Counted from the first letter of the stretch, positions 1 through 10,330 are shown. The stretch: 10,623 nucleotides of DNA from Candidatus Desantisiibacteriota bacterium (GCA_016209155.1 JACQWU010000270.1:1-10623); one strand, 5' to 3'. Numbers and translations are program-made. Notes: generated from the letters alone by a model not told the origin.

Positions 1-3000
1 ATCCAGAGCGAAACCGAAGGTGGGAAATTTGTGGTTAGTAATCCGCCTGAAGCTAAAGCTCCCAATACCGAGTACATGCTGTGGGTAACAAGCGCGGCAG
101 AGGAGGTTTCACCCGGGACAATGGTAACTATAACCATACATGTAAAAAATAACAGTGATGCGGATTTATCAGGAGGGCGTATATTTATAGATGCAGGCCA
201 TGTGTGGCGGGGGACTATAGAAACCGACGTTAATATTCCTGCTCATACGGAAACAAGCTTCACGTATTCGAGAGAGTGGAATCAAAGCGGAACGTTTTTT
301 GTGATATTATTTGATGGGGTTGGAAAAAAAATTGCATCAGGGGATAAAGGTATATGGGTTATTAATCCGGAAGCAGGGGTAACTTTAAGCACGGATAAAA
401 CTACATATAGAAAGGGAAGTATAGTAAATATTTATGAAACAACAAATAATTTAGCTTCAATAGCTTATGATTGTATTGTAAAAACGTATATAGTTAGTCC
501 CGGAAATATAAAGATATATGATAATATGCAACTTATAAATTTAGCAGACAAAGAAAATTTTGGTTTATCATATAGTGTTAACCTGCCCGCTGATTGTCCT
601 TTTGGTACATACATTGTATACACGGATATATTTGATACAAAATATAAAAAAATAGGCGGGAATTTAGCAAGTTTTACTGTTCCATACAGTGAAGTAAATA
701 TTGGACTTAATTTACCTGAAACATGGAAAGCATATTTCGATCTGAATATTGATTGCCGTACTGGTCAAGGTTGTGTTTATGTAGAAGATAAGAACAAAGA
801 CAATAAAGTTTCGTTTTTATTAAGTAACAGCAGTATTATAAATATAGATAATGCAAAATTTACAATAAAAATGAAGGATCCTGAATATAAAAATTATATA
901 TTCAATTCAACCATAATTGTTGATTTACCTGCTAATCAATCTGCAAATTTAGACTTTTATATTGGGGTACAAACACTTCATTTTGGTGATTATATTTTGG
1001 AATATAATCTGATTTACGGAACTAAAGAAGAAAAAGGTGAAGAAATAATTCCATGTAATGTTATCATTTCTGACTATAGTCTTGATAAAACATGGTATTC
1101 AATAAAAGATAATATAGATTTAACTTTTAAATTATTAAATGTTGGTAAATTTGAATTGCCAATTAGTGTAACGCATCCTGAAGGTAATGGTATTTTAGTT
1201 ATTGATGAAGGTATTATTTTACCTTCTAATTCTGTTATATGCAATTTAAAACATCCTCCAAACCCGGAATATATAACGCCAGGTATATACAAATTAAATA
1301 TCAGCGCGGATATAGTTAGATTGGATTGTACCTGGAATGAGCAGATTTTTGAATGCTGCTATCAAACGATTACGGATACTCAAACATTAAGTGATATTGA
1401 TATTACTATCCCCGATTACAATCTTGAATTTAATTTGCCGTCCGGAACATTTGATACATTAAGTACAATACCTGTTACAACTACAAATATTGGAGGGGTG
1501 GCATTCCATGGTAATGTGGAAATCACTTTGCGCGATAAGAATTTTGCGGATATATATACTAAAATAGAAAATAATATTGAGCTCGGAACACATAAATGGG
1601 ACATCCCTATTCCTCATGAAATCCTAAGCGGTGAATATACTATATTGGCTTATTGTTATGATAGTGCTAATAAAATTGCAGGTTCAGCAAATAGCAAAAT
1701 AAGCATTAATGGAACAGATATTGATTTGAATGTGTCAACAGATAAAGAGATATATACAACAGATGAAAATATCACTTCAAATTTTGTTTTTAATGTTAAA
1801 TCCGGAAGTCTTGAAAATGTAAAATTTAGTTATGAACTAATACAGGAGCAGGGCGCTATACAAAGTTATACCGGTATCAGTCTTAATGATGTCGTAAGCA
1901 TGGCAAAAGAGCAAAATGGGACTATGTGGTTTGGAATAGATGGAGGCGGGGTAATTAAGTATCAGAATACAGGTGCAATCTGGACTCAGTATACAACAAA
2001 TCAAGGATTGGAAAATAATTCAGTCCAATGTGTGCTGGTAGATGAAAGCGGTGATAAATGGTTTGGTACACATAATGGATTAACAAAATTTAATGGTACA
2101 AATCTTAGAACATATACTAAAAAAGATGGCCTTAGCGGAAATGATATAATAAGTATTATTCAGGATAAATATGGAGTTATATGGGCAGGAACAAATAATG
2201 GCGGAATAAGCAGGTTTGAAGGCAATATCTGGAATAGTGTTATAAATCCAATAGAGAATGCGGAAATAAGAGATATAGTTGAAGATAGTGTGGGGGCAAT
2301 TTGGTTTGCGACTGATAAAGGTATATCAAATTATAATAATGGTTCCTGGCTAAATTATGATTCAGCCACCGGGTTAAACACTAATAATATAACATGTTTA
2401 TATGCTGATAATGCCAATAATGTGTGGTGCGGGACATGGGGAAATGGTGTTTTAGAATTTAATGGTACTGAATGGAAAAAAATTGATATTTTATCCGGGA
2501 TATCAAATTTGTTTATTCGAGACATAACAGGAGATGATCAAAGCAATATATGGGCAGCAACTGATTATGGATTAAATAAAATTGGAGGACATGCGTCTGA
2601 CCTTTCAATACAGAAAATTTTCAAAGAAGCCGGACTTTTAGATAATAAAATAGAATCATTGCAAATTGATTCCAGTGGAAAATTATGGGTTGGAACAGCA
2701 AAAGGATTGAATAGATTAGATATAATAACAAATGCAGCAACCGCGGGCTATTCGACTATCCCAAACCATGAAGGGCAATCAGGTCTCCATATATTTAGTT
2801 TATTGCAGGATGCAAATGCGCTATGGATTGGAACAGAAAATGGCATAACAAAATATGATAGCACAGGCTGGACAAATTTTTCTGATATTACTAATAAAAG
2901 GGTAACAAGTATTGCGCAGGATTCACAGGGTTATTTATGGCTTGGAACATGGGGCGGAGGGATACTAAAGATAAATAAAAATCAAAATACAATAGTTAAC

Positions 3001-6000
3001 AGATATAAAAGGGCAGATGGATTATTAAGTGATTATATTAATTCAATTTATATTTCTCCTGATGGAAATATTTGGTCTGCTGCATGGCTTGGTGGTTTAA
3101 GTAAGTTTAATGGAACCACATGGGTATCATATACAAAAGCTGATGGATTGGGAGGAGAGACCGTATATTCAATCGCGCGTGAAGCGGCCGGAATATATTG
3201 GTTTGTTACAGATGATGGATTAACTAAATTTGATGGTACAACATGGAAAAATCATACAATCCTAAATGGTTTACCAATGGGTAATATTTCATCAATAGCA
3301 ATAGATTCAACAAATACAAAATGGATTGGTACTCGCGGCAGAGGGATAATAAAATATAATAATACAGTCAATACCGTATATACAAAAGCAGATGGATTAT
3401 CAGATAATTACATTTTACAGGTGAATGTTGATAATAACGGGAAGGTATGGGGTGCGACAAATAATGGCGGAATATCTGTTTATAATGGAAATAGTTGGGA
3501 GACAATAGATAATGAAAGAGGATTACCGGATAATAAAATATTTTCTTTATCAATTAATTCAGGGAAAACATGGCTGGGTAGTTTTGGAGGATTGATACTT
3601 GGGGCTCAACCGGGTAATATTATTTTAGAGAAAAATGAATTTATAAATATTACATCATCTTTTGATATGCCCATTACTTTAGATAAAATTACAACACCCG
3701 GGAAAATATATTTAAAATCAAAAATACTTACCAAAAAAGATACTTATAATGGAATAACCAAAGAAGAACAAATTGTTGATGAAGCTGTAACATCTTTCTA
3801 TGTAATAGATAAAAATCAGCATTTGATTGTAACATTGAATACAGATAAAATAGCTTATAAACCAAATGAACCAATAAAAGTTATTGGAAAAGTAATTAAT
3901 AATAAAGGTGAAGATATAGCAAAAGTGACTTTAAATATAACAAAAATTGAAACAGGAGAAATTTTATATACCGATGAATTTCCACTTAACGCAAGTTCAA
4001 TATATAGTTTTAGTTTTACTTTTACAGCAAGCAGCACTTTTACATTGCAGGCTTCAGCATCAGCGTCACCTGCTGTTATAATTTTTGAAAAAATAATTAT
4101 AGCAGAACCTGAACTTAGAGCAGAACTTAATGTTCCTGAATTTGTCGGCAGAAAACCATTCAATGCAACATTAAAATTAGAAAATATCGGGCAGATAGAT
4201 GCAAATATAACCTGTGATTTTGGTGATAAAAAGGAAGAAATTTTATTGCCAAAAGGAAAAACAATTTTTATGACAGGTGAAATAATTGCTCCATTATCAA
4301 GAGACGAAAACGGAGAATTTAAAGTAACTGCAAATATTTCAGGGGATGTGGAATATAATATATTCAAAAAAACAAAATTTAAAGAGGAAGTTAATTTTTT
4401 AATAAATGCACAGGAGGAGTATTCTGAAGGGCAGATTGAAATACCATATAGTTTTACAAACACAGGACTTGTAGATTCGGAAGTAAAAACAGAATTTAAT
4501 ATAGTAGATAGTAATCAGAATACGATAAACATGGAAAATAAAATACATTATATCCCAATAGGCCAGACATTATCGAATAAGCTACATCTTAATCTGCCAA
4601 AAGGTGAATATACATTATCATATAAGGAAATTCCCGGTAATAATGCTGAGTATGTTATTAATGATGGACAAATAAATTTTGTTGTTAAAAAATATAATGA
4701 TCTGGATATGGATATAATTAGTAATTCAAATACTACTGATGGAAAAATAAATTTAAATATAAATATTAGCAATAATGGGATAAATGATTTTTCAGGGTAT
4801 TTATATATTGAATCCGGTTTTTATATTTCTAAAGAGGAAATAAATATCAGCAAAGAGACTGCTTCAAATTTAAATTATTCTCTGACACCGTCAGGGATTA
4901 ATCATGGACAATCTAATATCGCAATTTTTTTAATTCAAAATGGTAAAGTAATATTGCAAAAAAATGTTTCAGCGGATATTTACGCTCCAGCGTTTGAGTT
5001 TGTATCTATACCGCATGTCCCTGTTTATCGATTAGGTAAATTGGAGTCGATAAGCTTTATCGTGAAAAATACAGGGAATTTGCAAGGAGAAGCAGAAATA
5101 AATTTTACCATGCTTGATATTTTAAACAATTCGCAAAGACTCTGGCTCCTTCCGGGTGAAGATGGAACGGTATCTTTTGAATTTATGATGCCTGATGATA
5201 TGGAAGCAAAGGAGCACAAAGCGCAAGTTTCGTTATGTGACAGGCAAAATGCCTGTCCTACCATAGATATACCATTTACTATTGAAGGGATAAAATTAAA
5301 TGTAACAGCATCATTTGATAAAGAGTATTATGCGGTAGGTGAAACAGCAAGATTAACTATGAATGTGGAGAATCAGGATACTACATATATGGCGAGTATG
5401 TTTGCAAGAGTAAATTATCATGCGTTTGATTCAAGTCAGAATTTTACATTAACAGGCGGGACGTCTACCCTGCAATTTGATATACCGGTGGATAAATTTA
5501 ATGGGGAAAAAGTGTTTTATGGTGTTTATATGTCAAGCGGGAGGTCTATCTGGTTAAATACTATTTATTTATACGAACAAAAAAGTATATTAAATTTAAC
5601 AACAAATAAACAGGTATATAAACCGGGTGAGACTGTTTTTGTGACGGCTACGTCAGCATATCCGGGAATATTATCATATAGTTCGTTTGATAATAAAGCA
5701 GACATATCAATTAATGGTTCAGCTTCATTTTCATTTGTCCTGCCCCAAAAACTTACTGCCGGAACATACGGAATAAGTTATACATTTAGCTATGAACAAT
5801 CAGATGTCATCAATCAGCTTTCTGGTACGCATTCATATGATGTCGATGGAATAAGCATAAAAATAGTTGAATGCAATTTGGATAAAGGGCAATATAATTC
5901 TAATGATACAATTAAAACATATATTAATATTGAATCAAATGTAGATATAAATACAAAATTAAACGCGGAGGTTATTAGTCCTGATAATCAAAGTAAAGTA

Positions 6001-8535
6001 TATGTTAATACATATGCGGCTTTAACAAAGGGAGATAATAAAATAAATTTAGCGGGAAGTTTAACAGCACAAGTTCCCGGAATTCATAGATTGGTTTATA
6101 GTTTTTATGATCAAGATGAAACATTGTCTTTAGCCGGCGGGTTTGAAGCCTTTGACGTTGGTGATATGGTTCTGGCAGGCTTAAGTGCGGATAAATATGA
6201 TTATCCGGAAGGATATGAAACAGTATATATAACAGCAAATTTTTATTCACAGGGACAGAATACAGGTAATTTTAAATTATATAAAGATGTTCAGACTTAT
6301 ATTGATGAGCAGGTTGCTTTATCCGGATTTGAAAATAGAATATATAAAATCACACCTTCAGAAACAGGAGATTTAAAGTTAGTTGGAGAATTGGAAACTG
6401 GAAGTTTAAAAAGCACAAAAGAAATTAATTTTGCTTATGGAAGTAACTTGCCGGATTTGGTAATGACAAATTTTATGTTTAGCATGCCTGAGGAATATGG
6501 CGATGAGGAAGGTAGAGTAACAATAGGAGTGAAAAATATCGGGAAGACAGGTACCGCACAGGAAGTGATAGCATCAGTGTCTGGGAATAGTATCAGTGAA
6601 AATATTAATTTTGGCACAATTGCATCAAATTGTGAGTCCGCATTTATATATAAATTTAATATAAAAGGGATATCGACTATACAGTTTAATGCAAGCGTTG
6701 ATATACGGAATTTAATAAGAGAATATCATGAGAATAATAATGATGCGCAGCCGATAAATATATCAATTCCTGGTGCTCCGCAAATTAATCCAATGTATGC
6801 ATATATTAACGACACAACTGCTATTATTAGCGGTATGGGAGCACCGGGAACACAGGTGATAATTTATTTGACCGGTAGAGACGTAAAATTTTACGTCTCT
6901 ACATTAGTAAACGGGCAGGGTGAATTTACAGCAAGTTTAAATACGATTGAAGGTGAAAACACAGTTTGGGTTAGAACAATTGATAACTATGGTAATAAGA
7001 GCTTATGGTCTAATCAAGAGAAATTTATACGGGATACAGAGATACCGCAAGCGCCGACATTAACATCTCCGCAAGATGGAGAAGTTTTATATAACCCTAT
7101 TACCACTATAAAAGGCACATCTGAGCCAAACAGCAAAGTTACAATGAAAATAGGCATTAATACTTATGTGACAAACGCAGATGAAAACGGAGAGTATATC
7201 TTTAGTTTTATACAATTAGAAGAAAACACAAATATATTAGTAATCAATGCGGAAGATAGAGCCGGAAATATAAGCAGCAGTAAAGAGGCAAGCTTAATAC
7301 TCAAATCAGTTAATCTAAATGTTAATAAAAATATATTAAATACACCGCGGGTGTTAATACTCGAAATTAGAAATCCGGGTATACACAATGAAATCATAGA
7401 CGAATTATTTGAAAGTACGGGAATTAATTACTATATAGCAAATACAAAAGATAAATTTAAAAGTGAATTAAGAACTGGTAAATATAATGTGTATATGTTG
7501 ATGGGTAATGATAAGAGTATTGAATTAATAGTAGAAAAGGAATTAAAGGAAAGGGTATATGGAGGAGAAGGGCTTGTTGTTAGCGGAGAAAAATCAGGTA
7601 TATTGGAAAATATGCAGGAAGTTTTGGGAATAAAAAATAAAGGTTATTTATCAACAAAAAATAATATAGTAAATTTTGTAGATACAACATTTACAAAACA
7701 AAACACACTCGCGACTATCGGAAAAGCAGAAAAGGCTGGATTAATCACAGGCCAAAAATTGGGATATATTAAAACAGGAAAAGAAGGAAGCTACTGCGAG
7801 GATCAGGAAGAGCCGGCAGTTATAGTAAATAATTATGGATATGGCAAAGTTGTTTATTTTACAATAGATTTACTGGAATCAAGTAATTCTGAAACAAAAG
7901 CGCAAATAAAAGAAATTGTTAATAGCAGCATAAAATATGTAGCTCCGGAAACAGTTGAACTGGAGCTGCTTGGAGTAGTCCCAATAGGAATAAATATAGA
8001 AAATAAAGGTAAAAGCGTTGAATTGAAAGTAACGGAAACGGTTCCTGAGGAAGTAAAAATAACAGGTGAATGGGTGAATGGGTTGATGAGTGAAGAGATA
8101 AATGCGAAAAGCAGCAGTTTTGCATGGCAATTTAAATTATTGGAAAATGAGAAGAAAATTTTACCTTACTATTTGCAGGTTCCGGATACAAAAGCTGTAT
8201 ATACGACAGTAACAGAAATTAGTTATTTAGATTTTGACAGTAGTTATAGATGGTATGGAAAATACCTGCTTGATATTCAAATTAACAGTGATATGAAAGG
8301 ATTAATAGATGAAATAGCTAATGATTTAAATGCTTTAGCATTAATAGATAAAGAGCAGCAAATAGGTGAAAAGATAGTTGGATTATTGCAGAAAATACAA
8401 AATGAAAAAAATAAAGAAAAAAATATAAGATATTGTTTAAAAGCAATAGATTCATTATCCAAAATAAAATCAATACAGGTGGAATTTATCCGCTATAAAC
8501 TTATTAAACTTTTGAAGGTTTGTGAGAAGATATGA
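1..8535 (+). CDS. Giant multidomain protein (5' partial): Ig/CARDB-like repeats, 14-blade propeller block, GATase-like domain
   Basis: The frame is open from base 1 and ends at TGA 8533-8535; the N-terminus is upstream, so no signal peptide can be judged. Numbering residues from the GTG at 31, the order is: Ig-like sandwiches (about 1-112, 117-219, 222-347, 348-460, 461-561); a sixth (about 563-1260) interrupted by 14 propeller blades (617-1192); roughly ten more sandwiches (1264-2246), the last (2140-2246) a good CARDB match (LPDLVMTNF, VKNIGKTGTA, EYHENNNDAQP); two bacterial Ig-like domains (2251-2336, 2341-2427); a Rossmann-like GATase domain (2439-2637); a final beta domain; and a helical tail (2753-2834). 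Several sandwiches open with the motif T/S-D-K-x-x-Y-x-x-x-E/D, as in macroglobulin-type domains. Such architecture is typical of exported surface or matrix proteins; that role is inferred. No kinase, transmembrane helix, LPXTG or other anchor is visible. The substrate or partner is unknown. Confidence 0.9.
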   Translation: MQSETEGGKFVVSNPPEAKAPNTEYMLWVTSAAEEVSPGTMVTITIHVKNNSDADLSGGRIFIDAGHVWRGTIETDVNIPAHTETSFTYSREWNQSGTFFVILFDGVGKKIASGDKGIWVINPEAGVTLSTDKTTYRKGSIVNIYETTNNLASIAYDCIVKTYIVSPGNIKIYDNMQLINLADKENFGLSYSVNLPADCPFGTYIVYTDIFDTKYKKIGGNLASFTVPYSEVNIGLNLPETWKAYFDLNIDCRTGQGCVYVEDKNKDNKVSFLLSNSSIINIDNAKFTIKMKDPEYKNYIFNSTIIVDLPANQSANLDFYIGVQTLHFGDYILEYNLIYGTKEEKGEEIIPCNVIISDYSLDKTWYSIKDNIDLTFKLLNVGKFELPISVTHPEGNGILVIDEGIILPSNSVICNLKHPPNPEYITPGIYKLNISADIVRLDCTWNEQIFECCYQTITDTQTLSDIDITIPDYNLEFNLPSGTFDTLSTIPVTTTNIGGVAFHGNVEITLRDKNFADIYTKIENNIELGTHKWDIPIPHEILSGEYTILAYCYDSANKIAGSANSKISINGTDIDLNVSTDKEIYTTDENITSNFVFNVKSGSLENVKFSYELIQEQGAIQSYTGISLNDVVSMAKEQNGTMWFGIDGGGVIKYQNTGAIWTQYTTNQGLENNSVQCVLVDESGDKWFGTHNGLTKFNGTNLRTYTKKDGLSGNDIISIIQDKYGVIWAGTNNGGISRFEGNIWNSVINPIENAEIRDIVEDSVGAIWFATDKGISNYNNGSWLNYDSATGLNTNNITCLYADNANNVWCGTWGNGVLEFNGTEWKKIDILSGISNLFIRDITGDDQSNIWAATDYGLNKIGGHASDLSIQKIFKEAGLLDNKIESLQIDSSGKLWVGTAKGLNRLDIITNAATAGYSTIPNHEGQSGLHIFSLLQDANALWIGTENGITKYDSTGWTNFSDITNKRVTSIAQDSQGYLWLGTWGGGILKINKNQNTIVNRYKRADGLLSDYINSIYISPDGNIWSAAWLGGLSKFNGTTWVSYTKADGLGGETVYSIAREAAGIYWFVTDDGLTKFDGTTWKNHTILNGLPMGNISSIAIDSTNTKWIGTRGRGIIKYNNTVNTVYTKADGLSDNYILQVNVDNNGKVWGATNNGGISVYNGNSWETIDNERGLPDNKIFSLSINSGKTWLGSFGGLILGAQPGNIILEKNEFINITSSFDMPITLDKITTPGKIYLKSKILTKKDTYNGITKEEQIVDEAVTSFYVIDKNQHLIVTLNTDKIAYKPNEPIKVIGKVINNKGEDIAKVTLNITKIETGEILYTDEFPLNASSIYSFSFTFTASSTFTLQASASASPAVIIFEKIIIAEPELRAELNVPEFVGRKPFNATLKLENIGQIDANITCDFGDKKEEILLPKGKTIFMTGEIIAPLSRDENGEFKVTANISGDVEYNIFKKTKFKEEVNFLINAQEEYSEGQIEIPYSFTNTGLVDSEVKTEFNIVDSNQNTINMENKIHYIPIGQTLSNKLHLNLPKGEYTLSYKEIPGNNAEYVINDGQINFVVKKYNDLDMDIISNSNTTDGKINLNINISNNGINDFSGYLYIESGFYISKEEINISKETASNLNYSLTPSGINHGQSNIAIFLIQNGKVILQKNVSADIYAPAFEFVSIPHVPVYRLGKLESISFIVKNTGNLQGEAEINFTMLDILNNSQRLWLLPGEDGTVSFEFMMPDDMEAKEHKAQVSLCDRQNACPTIDIPFTIEGIKLNVTASFDKEYYAVGETARLTMNVENQDTTYMASMFARVNYHAFDSSQNFTLTGGTSTLQFDIPVDKFNGEKVFYGVYMSSGRSIWLNTIYLYEQKSILNLTTNKQVYKPGETVFVTATSAYPGILSYSSFDNKADISINGSASFSFVLPQKLTAGTYGISYTFSYEQSDVINQLSGTHSYDVDGISIKIVECNLDKGQYNSNDTIKTYINIESNVDINTKLNAEVISPDNQSKVYVNTYAALTKGDNKINLAGSLTAQVPGIHRLVYSFYDQDETLSLAGGFEAFDVGDMVLAGLSADKYDYPEGYETVYITANFYSQGQNTGNFKLYKDVQTYIDEQVALSGFENRIYKITPSETGDLKLVGELETGSLKSTKEINFAYGSNLPDLVMTNFMFSMPEEYGDEEGRVTIGVKNIGKTGTAQEVIASVSGNSISENINFGTIASNCESAFIYKFNIKGISTIQFNASVDIRNLIREYHENNNDAQPINISIPGAPQINPMYAYINDTTAIISGMGAPGTQVIIYLTGRDVKFYVSTLVNGQGEFTASLNTIEGENTVWVRTIDNYGNKSLWSNQEKFIRDTEIPQAPTLTSPQDGEVLYNPITTIKGTSEPNSKVTMKIGINTYVTNADENGEYIFSFIQLEENTNILVINAEDRAGNISSSKEASLILKSVNLNVNKNILNTPRVLILEIRNPGIHNEIIDELFESTGINYYIANTKDKFKSELRTGKYNVYMLMGNDKSIELIVEKELKERVYGGEGLVVSGEKSGILENMQEVLGIKNKGYLSTKNNIVNFVDTTFTKQNTLATIGKAEKAGLITGQKLGYIKTGKEGSYCEDQEEPAVIVNNYGYGKVVYFTIDLLESSNSETKAQIKEIVNSSIKYVAPETVELELLGVVPIGINIENKGKSVELKVTETVPEEVKITGEWVNGLMSEEINAKSSSFAWQFKLLENEKKILPYYLQVPDTKAVYTTVTEISYLDFDSSYRWYGKYLLDIQINSDMKGLIDEIANDLNALALIDKEQQIGEKIVGLLQKIQNEKNKEKNIRYCLKAIDSLSKIKSIQVEFIRYKLIKLLKVCEKI
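1717..3810 (+). other. Ig-like domain split by the propeller insertion
   Basis: The first half (nt about 1717-1878, residues 563-616) begins with the usual sandwich opening (LNVSTDKEIYTTDENITSNF) and runs to the strand KFSYELIQEQG, but lacks the closing strands. After the last blade, the sequence (nt about 3607-3810, residues 1193-1260) supplies the missing part: an NIILEKNEFINITSSF strand, the proline/glycine turn and strand TTPGKIYLKSKIL, and the terminal strand VTSFYVID. The next domain opens immediately afterwards with LIVTLNTDKIAYKPNEP. The two flanks together have about 120 residues, close to the 95-125 of the neighbouring domains. The split is inferred from this complementarity; a structure prediction was not available. 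Confidence 0.65.
1879..3606 (+). repeat. 14 tandem beta-propeller blades (Reg_prop-type), residues about 617-1192
   Basis: I count 14 units of about 38-47 residues, each built as (hydrophobic)-x-S-I/L-x-x-D-x-x-G-x-x-W-x-G/A-T-x-x-G-L/I-x-K/R-F/Y-x-G, followed by a W/Y strand and a loop ending D/N-G-L. Clear examples are MWFGIDGGGVIKY, KWFGTHNGLTKFNG, LWLGTWGGGILKI and KWIGTRGRGIIKY. This is the two-component regulator propeller repeat known from periplasmic sensors of hybrid two-component systems, where 14 repeats fold as two seven-bladed propellers. The count of 14 therefore suggests two complete propellers here. No Y_Y_Y domain, histidine kinase or membrane segment follows. A ligand-binding or adhesive role is possible but not shown. 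Confidence 0.88.
6781..7311 (+). other. Two consecutive bacterial Ig-like domains of the giant protein
   Basis: Residues about 2251-2336 and 2341-2427 align with each other: A-x-I-S/K-G-x-x-x-P-x-x-x-V near the start, a central N-G-E/Q-F/Y strand, then E-N-T-x-x-x-V and D-N/R-x-G-N-x-S near the end. This is the pattern of stalk-forming bacterial Ig-like repeats (families with D-x-x-G-N near the last strand). They end the extended stalk just before the GATase-like domain. The first copy is about four residues longer than the second between its first strand and the N-G turn, at the place where the 28-bp palindrome lies. Confidence 0.7.
6875..6902. repeat. Perfect 28-bp palindrome inside coding sequence
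   Basis: The left arm GTAGAGACGTAAAA is followed directly by its exact reverse complement TTTTACGTCTCTAC, with no spacer (centre between 6888 and 6889). The flanking bases (G at 6874, A at 6903) do not pair, so the palindrome ends there. It lies within codons for residues 2282-2291 (GRDVKFYVST) and keeps the frame open. Its ends (GTAGAGACG/CGTCTCTAC) resemble dispersed palindromic repeats I recall from cyanobacteria and other phyla, which suggests a genome-wide repeat family; that is recollection, not a search result. Only one copy was noticed in this window. Confidence 0.85.
7345..7941 (+). other. Class I GATase-like (Rossmann) domain lacking the nucleophile cysteine
   Basis: Residues about 2439-2637 change from beta-sandwich to alternating alpha/beta sequence. 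A first strand (RVLILEI) is followed by a helix (NEIIDELFESTG), a second strand (INYYIANT), a strand YNVYMLMG, a helix ending RVYGGE, and strand GLVVSG. The C-terminal part has NNYGYGKVVYFTIDLLES, typical of ThuA/GATase1-like domains in large secreted proteins, where the final strand describes YGYGKVVYF. In active amidotransferases the strand after G-G-E-G ends in a nucleophile elbow with cysteine; here it reads VVSGEKSG, so the domain is probably not a glutaminase. It may bind a ligand or act as a scaffold. The fold call is from pattern only. Confidence 0.6.
8287..8532 (+). other. Charged helical C-terminal tail of the giant protein
   Basis: The last 82 residues (2753-2834) contain no beta-rich pattern. 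They form heptad-like, Lys/Glu/Ile/Leu-rich segments such as LIDEIANDLNALALIDKEQQ and KIVGLLQKIQNEKNKEKN, then a hydrophobic-basic end (FIRYKLIKLLKVCEKI). This suggests two or three amphipathic helices that could associate with a partner or with each other. No sortase, PEP-CTERM, type IX or other known sorting signal was recognised, so surface attachment, if any, must be by another route. Confidence 0.6.
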
Positions 8536-8544
8536 AAATAATTC

Positions 8545-8570
8545 AAAATTAATAATTTAAAATTAATTTT
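8545..8570. terminator. A/T-only inverted repeat between convergent genes; possible weak bidirectional terminator
   Basis: AAAATTAAT (8545-8553) and ATTAATTTT (8562-8570) are exact inverted copies around an 8-base loop. The repeat fills most of the 34-base gap between the stop of the giant gene (8535) and the stop of the convergent ATPase gene (8570-8572). Position suits a shared terminator and the T-run faces both ways, but the stem has no G:C pair and would be weak, so chance in AT-rich DNA is a real alternative. Confidence 0.35.
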
Positions 8571-10330
8571 CAGTTGTTTTCAAATGAAGTTTTTATTAGA
8601 TTATTAAGATAAGATTCGGGATTTATAACTGCTTCTGCTGTAATAATAAAATTTTTTCCCATTTCATGATTATTAATTAGTTTTAATCCTAATTCATAAT
8701 TTTTAAATATTTTCTGGCATTCCAGAACAACGTTTGTATTTTCATTTAAAGCATTTTTTAAAATCAAGTCCATGGCTTCAGTATCAAAGCTGATAGATAT
8801 ATTATTTTTAATTAAAAAATTTTTTTCAAATTCATGTATTTCCCTGCGCATATTAATTATTTGGGTACATGTTTTATTAATTAGTATATCTTCTGCTAAG
8901 GCTATTTCTGTGATTAAATCAACTGCGCATTGTGAAAAAACAATTTCTTCGTTATAATTTTTTTTATAATTCACTGCAAAAATATCTATCTGGTTTTTTA
9001 TTATTTTTTTTTGCTGAGAAATAAAAATTTTAAATAGATTTTCCTGCTCAATATTATCAGGATCATTTAATACTTTGTTTAATTCTATTTCAGGATTTTC
9101 AATTATTCTATCTGTTACGATAAGTTTTTTAATATTTGTGGATGGTAAATTTTTTTCAAATTTTAATAATTTTTTTTCCATCACGCTTATTAAACCTCTT
9201 GCACCTATTTTTTTTTGATAAGTTTGTTTTGCTATTTCATGAAATGCTTCATCCATAAAATATAAATTTATTCCATAAGATTTAAAATCCTGTTTTTTGC
9301 TTTTGACAAGAGGTGAGTTCGGATTTTTAAGAATTTCATGCAGATCCTCAAGCGTAAGAGCATCCAATACTGTAATCACAGGCAATCTGCCAATAAATTC
9401 AGATTCAAAACCATAAGTGATGAAATCTTCTGCCACAGCCTGCCGCAGTATTTCACTGTTGAGTTTGTCATCTAAAGAGGATACGGGTGAAGTGTTAAAA
9501 CCGATATTTTGTTTATTAAGTCTTTTTGCTATAATTTCCGTAAGGCCGTTAAAAGCGCCGCTCATTATGAATAAAATATTTCTGGTATTTATTTTTTTCT
9601 TTTCAATTTTACCGGTTTTTTGGAATTTTAGCGCAATTTCCATTTGAGAAGCAATATCTGAGGGTGATTTTAAATCAACCTCTGTCTCTTCCATAACTTT
9701 TAAAAAATTACGCTGTACACCGGTTCTTGAAACATCCGGGCCATAGGTAGTGCCGCTTGATGCTATTTTATCAATTTCGTCTACATAAATGATTCCGTGC
9801 TCCGCAAGTTCAATATCTCCGCCGGCTTCGTGCGCTAATTCTCTTACAAGATCTTCAACGTCTCTTCCAACATATCCTGTTTCACTGAATTTAGTTGCAT
9901 CGCTTTTAACAAACGGCACCCCGATTTTATCCGCAATTAATTTTACGAGATAAGTTTTTCCTACACCGGTCGGTCCAATCATCAGGATATTACTTTTTAT
10001 GCTGCCGGGAAACATTTTAAGTGTTTTAGCTTTTATTCTGCGGAAATGAGTACATATTTTTGTTGAAAGAATTTCTTTTGCTTCATTTTGTTTAATCACA
10101 TATTGATCCAGATATTTTTCAAGTTCAGCAGGGAGCATATCAAAGTGTATTTTTTGAACCCCGTGTGGTGTAGAGCTGCCTTCATTATCTGTTTTTTCTC
10201 TTTCTGCATCAGGTACAGATGTTTCGCGGGGATGTGATTGTTTTATGAATATATCCATGTCAGCTTTATGAGGTTCTTCATTTATATTTGTAATTATATT
10301 ATTATCTTTTGACATATTATTCACTTTCAT
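8570..10330 (-). CDS. ClpX/HslU-like AAA+ unfoldase with C-terminal extension, no zinc-binding domain
   Basis: The protein (586 aa) is an AAA+ ATPase of the Clp/HslU unfoldase group. Visible motifs are Walker A GPTGVGKT (119-126), pore-1 loop GYVG (152-155), Walker B IIYVDEIDK (180-188), sensor-1 strand NILFIMSGAF (251-260), IGF loop (276-278, the tripeptide by which ClpX docks on ClpP), arginine-finger box EFIGRLPV (R315) and sensor-2 GARGL (R378). The N-terminal 60 residues are polar and low in complexity and lack the four-cysteine zinc domain of ClpX. About 180 residues (from 410) extend beyond the ClpX core and look helical. The start overlaps the DUF362 stop (ATGA); an in-frame ATG at 10315 with GAAAGTGA upstream is an alternative start. 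The likely role is ATP-driven unfolding of proteins for a peptidase such as ClpP, or peptidase-independent remodelling. I recall similar extended ClpX-like ATPases in other bacteria, but have no specific function for them. Confidence 0.88.
   Translation of the reverse strand: MKVNNMSKDNNIITNINEEPHKADMDIFIKQSHPRETSVPDAEREKTDNEGSSTPHGVQKIHFDMLPAELEKYLDQYVIKQNEAKEILSTKICTHFRRIKAKTLKMFPGSIKSNILMIGPTGVGKTYLVKLIADKIGVPFVKSDATKFSETGYVGRDVEDLVRELAHEAGGDIELAEHGIIYVDEIDKIASSGTTYGPDVSRTGVQRNFLKVMEETEVDLKSPSDIASQMEIALKFQKTGKIEKKKINTRNILFIMSGAFNGLTEIIAKRLNKQNIGFNTSPVSSLDDKLNSEILRQAVAEDFITYGFESEFIGRLPVITVLDALTLEDLHEILKNPNSPLVKSKKQDFKSYGINLYFMDEAFHEIAKQTYQKKIGARGLISVMEKKLLKFEKNLPSTNIKKLIVTDRIIENPEIELNKVLNDPDNIEQENLFKIFISQQKKIIKNQIDIFAVNYKKNYNEEIVFSQCAVDLITEIALAEDILINKTCTQIINMRREIHEFEKNFLIKNNISISFDTEAMDLILKNALNENTNVVLECQKIFKNYELGLKLINNHEMGKNFIITAEAVINPESYLNNLIKTSFENN
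10327..10330 (-). promoter_or_regulatory. ATGA start/stop overlap coupling the DUF362 and ATPase genes
   Basis: Reading the minus strand, the DUF362 gene ends GTA AAA ATA TGA, and the ATG of the ATPase frame shares ATGA with that stop. No Shine-Dalgarno sequence is evident just before this ATG, which fits re-initiation by ribosomes finishing the upstream gene. The downstream ATG at 10315-10313, preceded by GAAAGTGA, could be used instead or as well. Confidence 0.6.

Follow-up and report, generated by a model that had tools for sequence, protein, structure and literature searches.

A perfect palindrome coding for part of an Ig-like domain in a Candidatus Desantisiibacteriota bacterium and its assignment to the double-foot REP elements

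The perfect 28-bp palindrome at positions 6875-6902 of a 10,623-nucleotide stretch of DNA from a Candidatus Desantisiibacteriota bacterium (GCA_016209155.1 JACQWU010000270.1:1-10623; the whole stretch is termed the window below) is very probably a double-foot repetitive extragenic palindromic (REP) element of the TnpAREP/RAYT (REP-associated tyrosine transposase) subclass 2.4 kind, whose codons are predicted to provide an immunoglobulin-like (Ig-like) domain with a turn and a strand. Its membership in this known kind of double-foot REPs is secure. We infer that the window copy was mobilised by a RAYT and that host codons at the window site were replaced or trimmed.

6875..6902, no strand assigned: double-foot REP palindrome, perfect, 28 bp, GTAG...CTAC, core TAAAATTTTA (sequence, genome copies and palindrome scan)
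6874..6903, plus strand: codons overlapping the palindrome, GRDVKFYVST (open-frame translation)

The palindrome and its copies in the source genome

The palindrome GTAGAGACGTAAAATTTTACGTCTCTAC has no spacer, and all of its 14 pairs (28/28 positions) match. Elsewhere in the window, spacer-less palindromes have arms of at most 7 bp (14 bp in total). In 300 Markov-1 simulations that kept its dinucleotide frequencies, the longest arm was 7.6 on average and in no case above 13. The preliminary description of this DNA had reported a perfect palindrome carried in frame, far beyond chance, which would form a strong hairpin in RNA. All three points were borne out: the palindrome is covered by the codons at 6874-6903, neither the rest of the window nor the simulations provided a palindrome of this length, and the predicted fold of a 68-nt stretch reached -20.5 kcal/mol (z -3.5) as RNA and -14.1 (z -5.8) as single-stranded DNA. 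The folding also showed the GTAG foot base-paired with CTAC, at both ends of a single long hairpin. A search of the window against Rfam matched nothing.

The source genome (3.08 Mb in 352 contigs, 79% complete) contains 55 copies of GTAGAGACG-N10-CGTCTCTAC with at most three mismatches, and the reversed-pattern control gave 0. The copies are found in genes as well as in intergenic places, which was the outcome sought when a genome-wide search was proposed. Together with the occurrence of the family in many phyla and the presumed transposase alongside it, this agrees with the earlier suggestion of a dispersed, copy-spreading repeat. The most frequent core in the genome is CAAAATTTTG; the window core occurs once. 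The flanks of the copies are mostly unrelated, except for a few larger common units and the giant paralogues of the host gene. Several copies are located within a larger repeat whose ends are inverted (AGTTATTGGTGGTAATCGATATTTT ... ATTAGCTG), possibly a miniature inverted-repeat transposable element (MITE) carrying the REP.

Template switching is able to produce perfect palindromes. The window palindrome could accordingly have arisen in place, by this process acting on a quasi-palindrome or by selection on the protein, without any relation to dispersed repeats, and the uniqueness of its core in the source genome would suit such an origin. We regard it as extremely unlikely, since both arms match, at all nine bases, the repeat that has 55 copies in this genome, and since paralogues of the host gene contain six further copies in frame.

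Among named genomes, the family turned up in at least 118 contig stretches, mainly of Bacteroidota and Cyanobacteria. The other taxa among the matches listed were Cloacimonadota, Spirochaetales, Planctomycetes, Acidobacteria, Chloroflexi, Zixibacteria, Deltaproteobacteria, Methylococcales and Moranbacteria/Parcubacteria records. In 16 genomes from the matches listed, the number of copies (at most one mismatch) ranged from 1 to 353, and about 350 copies each were present in Dulcicalothrix and Calothrix NIES-4105.

RAYT genes and known REP systems

An intact RAYT of 191 aa with the motifs NHFH, WQ and YIETNP is encoded on contig 257 of the source genome, with palindromes of the family upstream (19-46) and at the gene end (713-740). 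The end of contig 3 holds a RAYT fragment, which has one palindrome inside and one beside it. The RAYTs of this genome were chosen by a search with an NCBIfam model and thus independently of palindrome position; a search with Pfam PF01797 had missed the cognate RAYTs. The contig 257 protein shows 58% identity to a Dysgonamonadaceae RAYT with copies of this palindrome family on its flanks. In other genomes, a palindrome copy was located inside or adjoining the gene in 12/12 RAYT-like frames, a figure which is less informative because these frames were picked up through their proximity to a palindrome. Among the matches listed, a RAYT frame occurred in 11 of the 118 stretches (871 kb), and in those 11 stretches 24 of the 26 palindromes lay within 300 bp of the RAYT, against 8.6 expected at random positions there. 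Most of the 12 relatives, as well as the contig 3 fragment, carry in-frame REP copies within the RAYT gene itself. Four of the relatives match NH[IFV]H, WQ and YIxNNP fully; in others NHLH occurs or the Y motif ends in NV. The NCBIfam model REP_Tyr_transpos matched every RAYT tested, mostly below the curated cut-off, and Pfam Y1_Tnp detected only some of the RAYT-like frames.

No GTAGAGAC palindrome was found near the other RAYTs of the source genome. Those on contigs 106 and 349 carry or adjoin other palindrome families (GTAGGGAACGG..., GTAGGGCAA...), and several REP families with their own transposases therefore seem to coexist in this genome. On contig 89 (about 5132-6232), a RAYT frame lies in frame inside an apparent DNA methyltransferase-like gene, the 367-aa stretch being fully open. 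In that gene TGSFYTPREIVNYMV precedes the RAYT frame and ILDPACGSGAFPMG follows it, and the borders of the frame are occupied by another repeat family (GTAGG...CAGGCATTCCTGCCTG).

Each double-foot REP of TnpAREP subclass 2.4 is a long hairpin with GT[AG]G at its 5' foot and C[TC]AC at its 3' foot, and such REPs flank the RAYT gene and insert in frame inside it; their RAYTs have the motifs NH[IFV]H, WQ and YIxNNP, and the subclass occurs in Cyanobacteria, Bacteroidetes and other phyla (PMC6006769). The family described here has the same GTAG/CTAC feet, dispersed copies, a RAYT flanked by the same repeat, in-frame copies inside RAYT genes and a spread over Cyanobacteria and Bacteroidota. The window palindrome fits the subclass on every feature tested except one residue in the Y motif of the RAYT encoded in its genome, which reads YIETNP, one position off YIxNNP. 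The setting of the window copy is different, since it is located in a giant Ig/MG2-type paralogue and not in a RAYT gene, and is near length-neutral in the protein.

REPs of the GTAG and CGTC types were found inside many genes (PMC3733652). The GTAG-tagged ones resemble the window family in their GTAG terminus, in being small dispersed palindromes and in having some intragenic copies, but their tag is unpaired and present at one end, whereas the GTAG of the window is paired and the feet are at both ends (PMC3733652). A single-tagged GTAG REP was ruled out, since the window GTAG pairs with CTAC. Of 143 papers in which the literal GTAGAGACG was matched, the 20 listed were unrelated. Elhai and co-workers reportedly described in 2008 very short small dispersed repeats (SDRs) in filamentous cyanobacteria; by description, the window family is alike in size and in its abundance in these organisms.

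The Rickettsia palindromic elements (RPEs) are likewise palindromic repeats translated in frame within protein genes. They have been described as RPE-4 and RPE-6 of the CGTC type and the longer RPE-1 (PMC3733652), and are set apart from the window element by this description. The in-frame insertion that recalls them, and the location of some source-genome copies inside larger repeated units, would be in line with a different short mobile repeat that is not driven by a RAYT, such as a MITE or a CGTC REP of the Rickettsia type. This is hardly credible, as copies directly adjoin RAYT genes both in this genome and in a dozen more, and the GTAG/CTAC double foot fits the published subclass 2.4 REP type.

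The host gene and coding copies of the element

1..8535, plus strand: host gene, 5' end open (open frame, Pfam domains, paralogues)
6775..7047, plus strand: bacterial Ig-like domain with the palindrome; predicted six-strand fold, mean predicted local distance difference test score (pLDDT) 89 (Pfam, homologues, model)
7048..7320, plus strand: neighbouring Ig-like domain without the palindrome, approximate boundaries (Pfam Big_6/Big_13)

The host frame codes for 2844 aa, is cut off by the contig start and belongs to a family of giant paralogues in the source genome. The Pfam matches in it were a Reg_prop two-component-regulator propeller, MG2/A2M-like, CARDB and bacterial Ig-like domains. The protein is likely to be extracellular because of this domain content; any signal sequence would fall outside the contig. 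In a model of the Ig domain built from a six-sequence alignment, strands are predicted at residues 27-33 and 38-44, and the element encodes residues 34-43. In this model G-R-D-V would form the turn and K-F-Y-V-S-T the following beta-strand (most of the second strand), so that the repeat-encoded residues are predicted to supply a turn and one strand of the domain. The pLDDT, 89 on average, is 79 for residues 31-40.

A plain insertion would be expected to add 9 to 10 residues. Compared with nine homologues lacking the element, the window Ig domain has a net gain of 2 to 3 residues. The net change relative to homologues without the element was about -1 to +1 residues for the contig 287 copy at 5575, -2 to -3 for RecG, +1 for pullulanase, +3 to +5 for an oxidoreductase and 0 to +6 for beta-galactosidase, in cases selected for good alignment, not at random, and with distant homologues. 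Judging from the alignments, these near length-neutral copies would fit either a replacement of host codons or an insertion that was trimmed afterwards. At the place of the contig 287 copy at 9466 one paralogue is 24 residues shorter, and an LdpA domain is, over its whole length, 9 residues longer than the Pfam profile; both copies look like real additions. The simple insertion into a surface loop proposed in the preliminary description does not agree with a net gain of 2 to 3 residues instead of 9 to 10, nor with the modelled turn and beta-strand. The neighbouring domain had been described as about four residues shorter, which was roughly right, as homologous Ig domains are two to three residues shorter. 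The corresponding residues had been said to be missing there; their identities do differ, but the equivalent turn and strand are present.

At least seven in-frame copies are located in the giant paralogues: besides the window copy, contig 287 has three and contigs 288, 349 and 285 have one each. They are not all independent because four of them, one each on contigs 285, 287, 288 and 349, occupy a common site, at which the element is 75-93% identical among the four paralogues against 45-78% for the flanking DNA. The contig 285 copy has both arms changed relative to its paralogues. A single TAA stop interrupts the aligned part of the contig 285 paralogue, which may be a decaying copy. Elsewhere, in-frame copies were found in a Moranbacteria RecG, a formate-dehydrogenase-like oxidoreductase, a pullulanase, a beta-galactosidase, LdpA and a plasmid polyketide synthase. 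Some in-frame copies directly follow apparent signal peptides or lipoprotein boxes (two in the source genome and five elsewhere, judged by eye), a link that we treat as a lead only. A PDB search with a binding protein hosting one in-frame copy gave no match.

On the minus strand, positions 8570-10330 of the window encode a 586-aa AAA protein resembling the ClpX/HslU type (AAA_2, ClpB_D2-small) and then a DUF362 fragment.

Core variation, occupied sites and the proposed mechanism

The 129 cores with exact arms comprised 32 distinct perfect cores, and their five core pairs were 83-97% complementary against 31-44% expected for independent sides. Because the complementarity is so far above this expectation, palindromy is maintained while the core sequence varies. 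On both arms the window core deviates from the common one. It also occurs in one other genome, that of Mastigocoleus, and could therefore represent a separate subfamily. At an in-frame lipoprotein site, three Parabacteroides-group genomes have the cores TAGCGCGCTA, GAGCGCGCTC and GGGCGCGCTC, one each, and the first two differ by a change on both arms. In the same group, runs of half or decayed elements (GTAGAGACGTAGC...) were observed next to intact ones.

The base pairing maintained across very diverse cores and the matching change of the two arms at one in-frame site shared by orthologues could also be explained by a conserved functional site in DNA or RNA (a regulatory hairpin, a protein-binding or a recombination site) retained for that function. 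The same applies to the orthologous elements of the Parabacteroides group, which are often identical while their flanks are 84-92% alike. We consider this explanation very improbable, because the copies are scattered over unrelated genes and intergenic DNA and have no flanks in common. Moreover, recognition of the hairpin by a RAYT accounts for the pairing without any host function, and templated repair within the hairpin would likewise keep the arms matched.

Several results weigh against a REP mobilised by a RAYT. A comparison of orthologues, as proposed in the preliminary description, recovered no clean empty site. Two flank patterns in the source genome yielded filled sites only, and searches revealed no empty counterpart in orthologues, either of the window copy or of the three sites pursued in the Parabacteroides group; when sites of this group were compared with close relatives, all aligned ones were filled and the remainder had non-homologous flanks. 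A plasmid search with one variant of the repeat gave three cyanobacterial records, with one copy inside a polyketide synthase gene, and the site was filled in both Planktothrix plasmids. The argument for insertion is therefore drawn from the dispersal of the copies and their linkage to RAYT genes. Since the window core is unique in the source genome, no donor copy could be pinpointed. A search of relatives found the family in only 3 of 60 genomes, the source genome being one of the three, and did not find it in the three other genomes of the phylum that the list covers. No report of observed transposition for this REP family was found in the literature.

According to the mechanism that we favour for these double-foot REPs, the single-stranded palindrome would fold into a hairpin, and the RAYT, an HUH/tyrosine single-strand DNA transposase, would recognise it by its GTAG foot, cut it and copy or move the element to new sites. 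Of the three frames in which the element can be read, two are open (VETxxxxSL and xRDxxxxVST) and the third meets TAG. Because of these two open frames, copies landing in a tolerated frame would survive within genes. As a speculative extension, which we think rather unlikely, REPs of this family might mainly overwrite host codons over roughly their own length rather than adding 28-30 bp, the two open frames giving ready-made structural peptides, and the matched arm changes (TAGCGCGCTA to GAGCGCGCTC) might reflect hairpin-templated correction continuing after capture by a gene.

The in-frame insertion of double-foot REPs into genes is already known; the near length-neutral coding copies and the paired arm changes at an orthologous site are less ordinary. 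What looked like an odd palindrome is now recognisable as a mobile repeat whose genome, from a poorly sampled lineage, also encodes a RAYT. Its coding copies open a neglected question to testing: how a 28-bp mobile hairpin can join a folded domain at almost constant length, and whether it continues to be shaped there by hairpin-templated repair.

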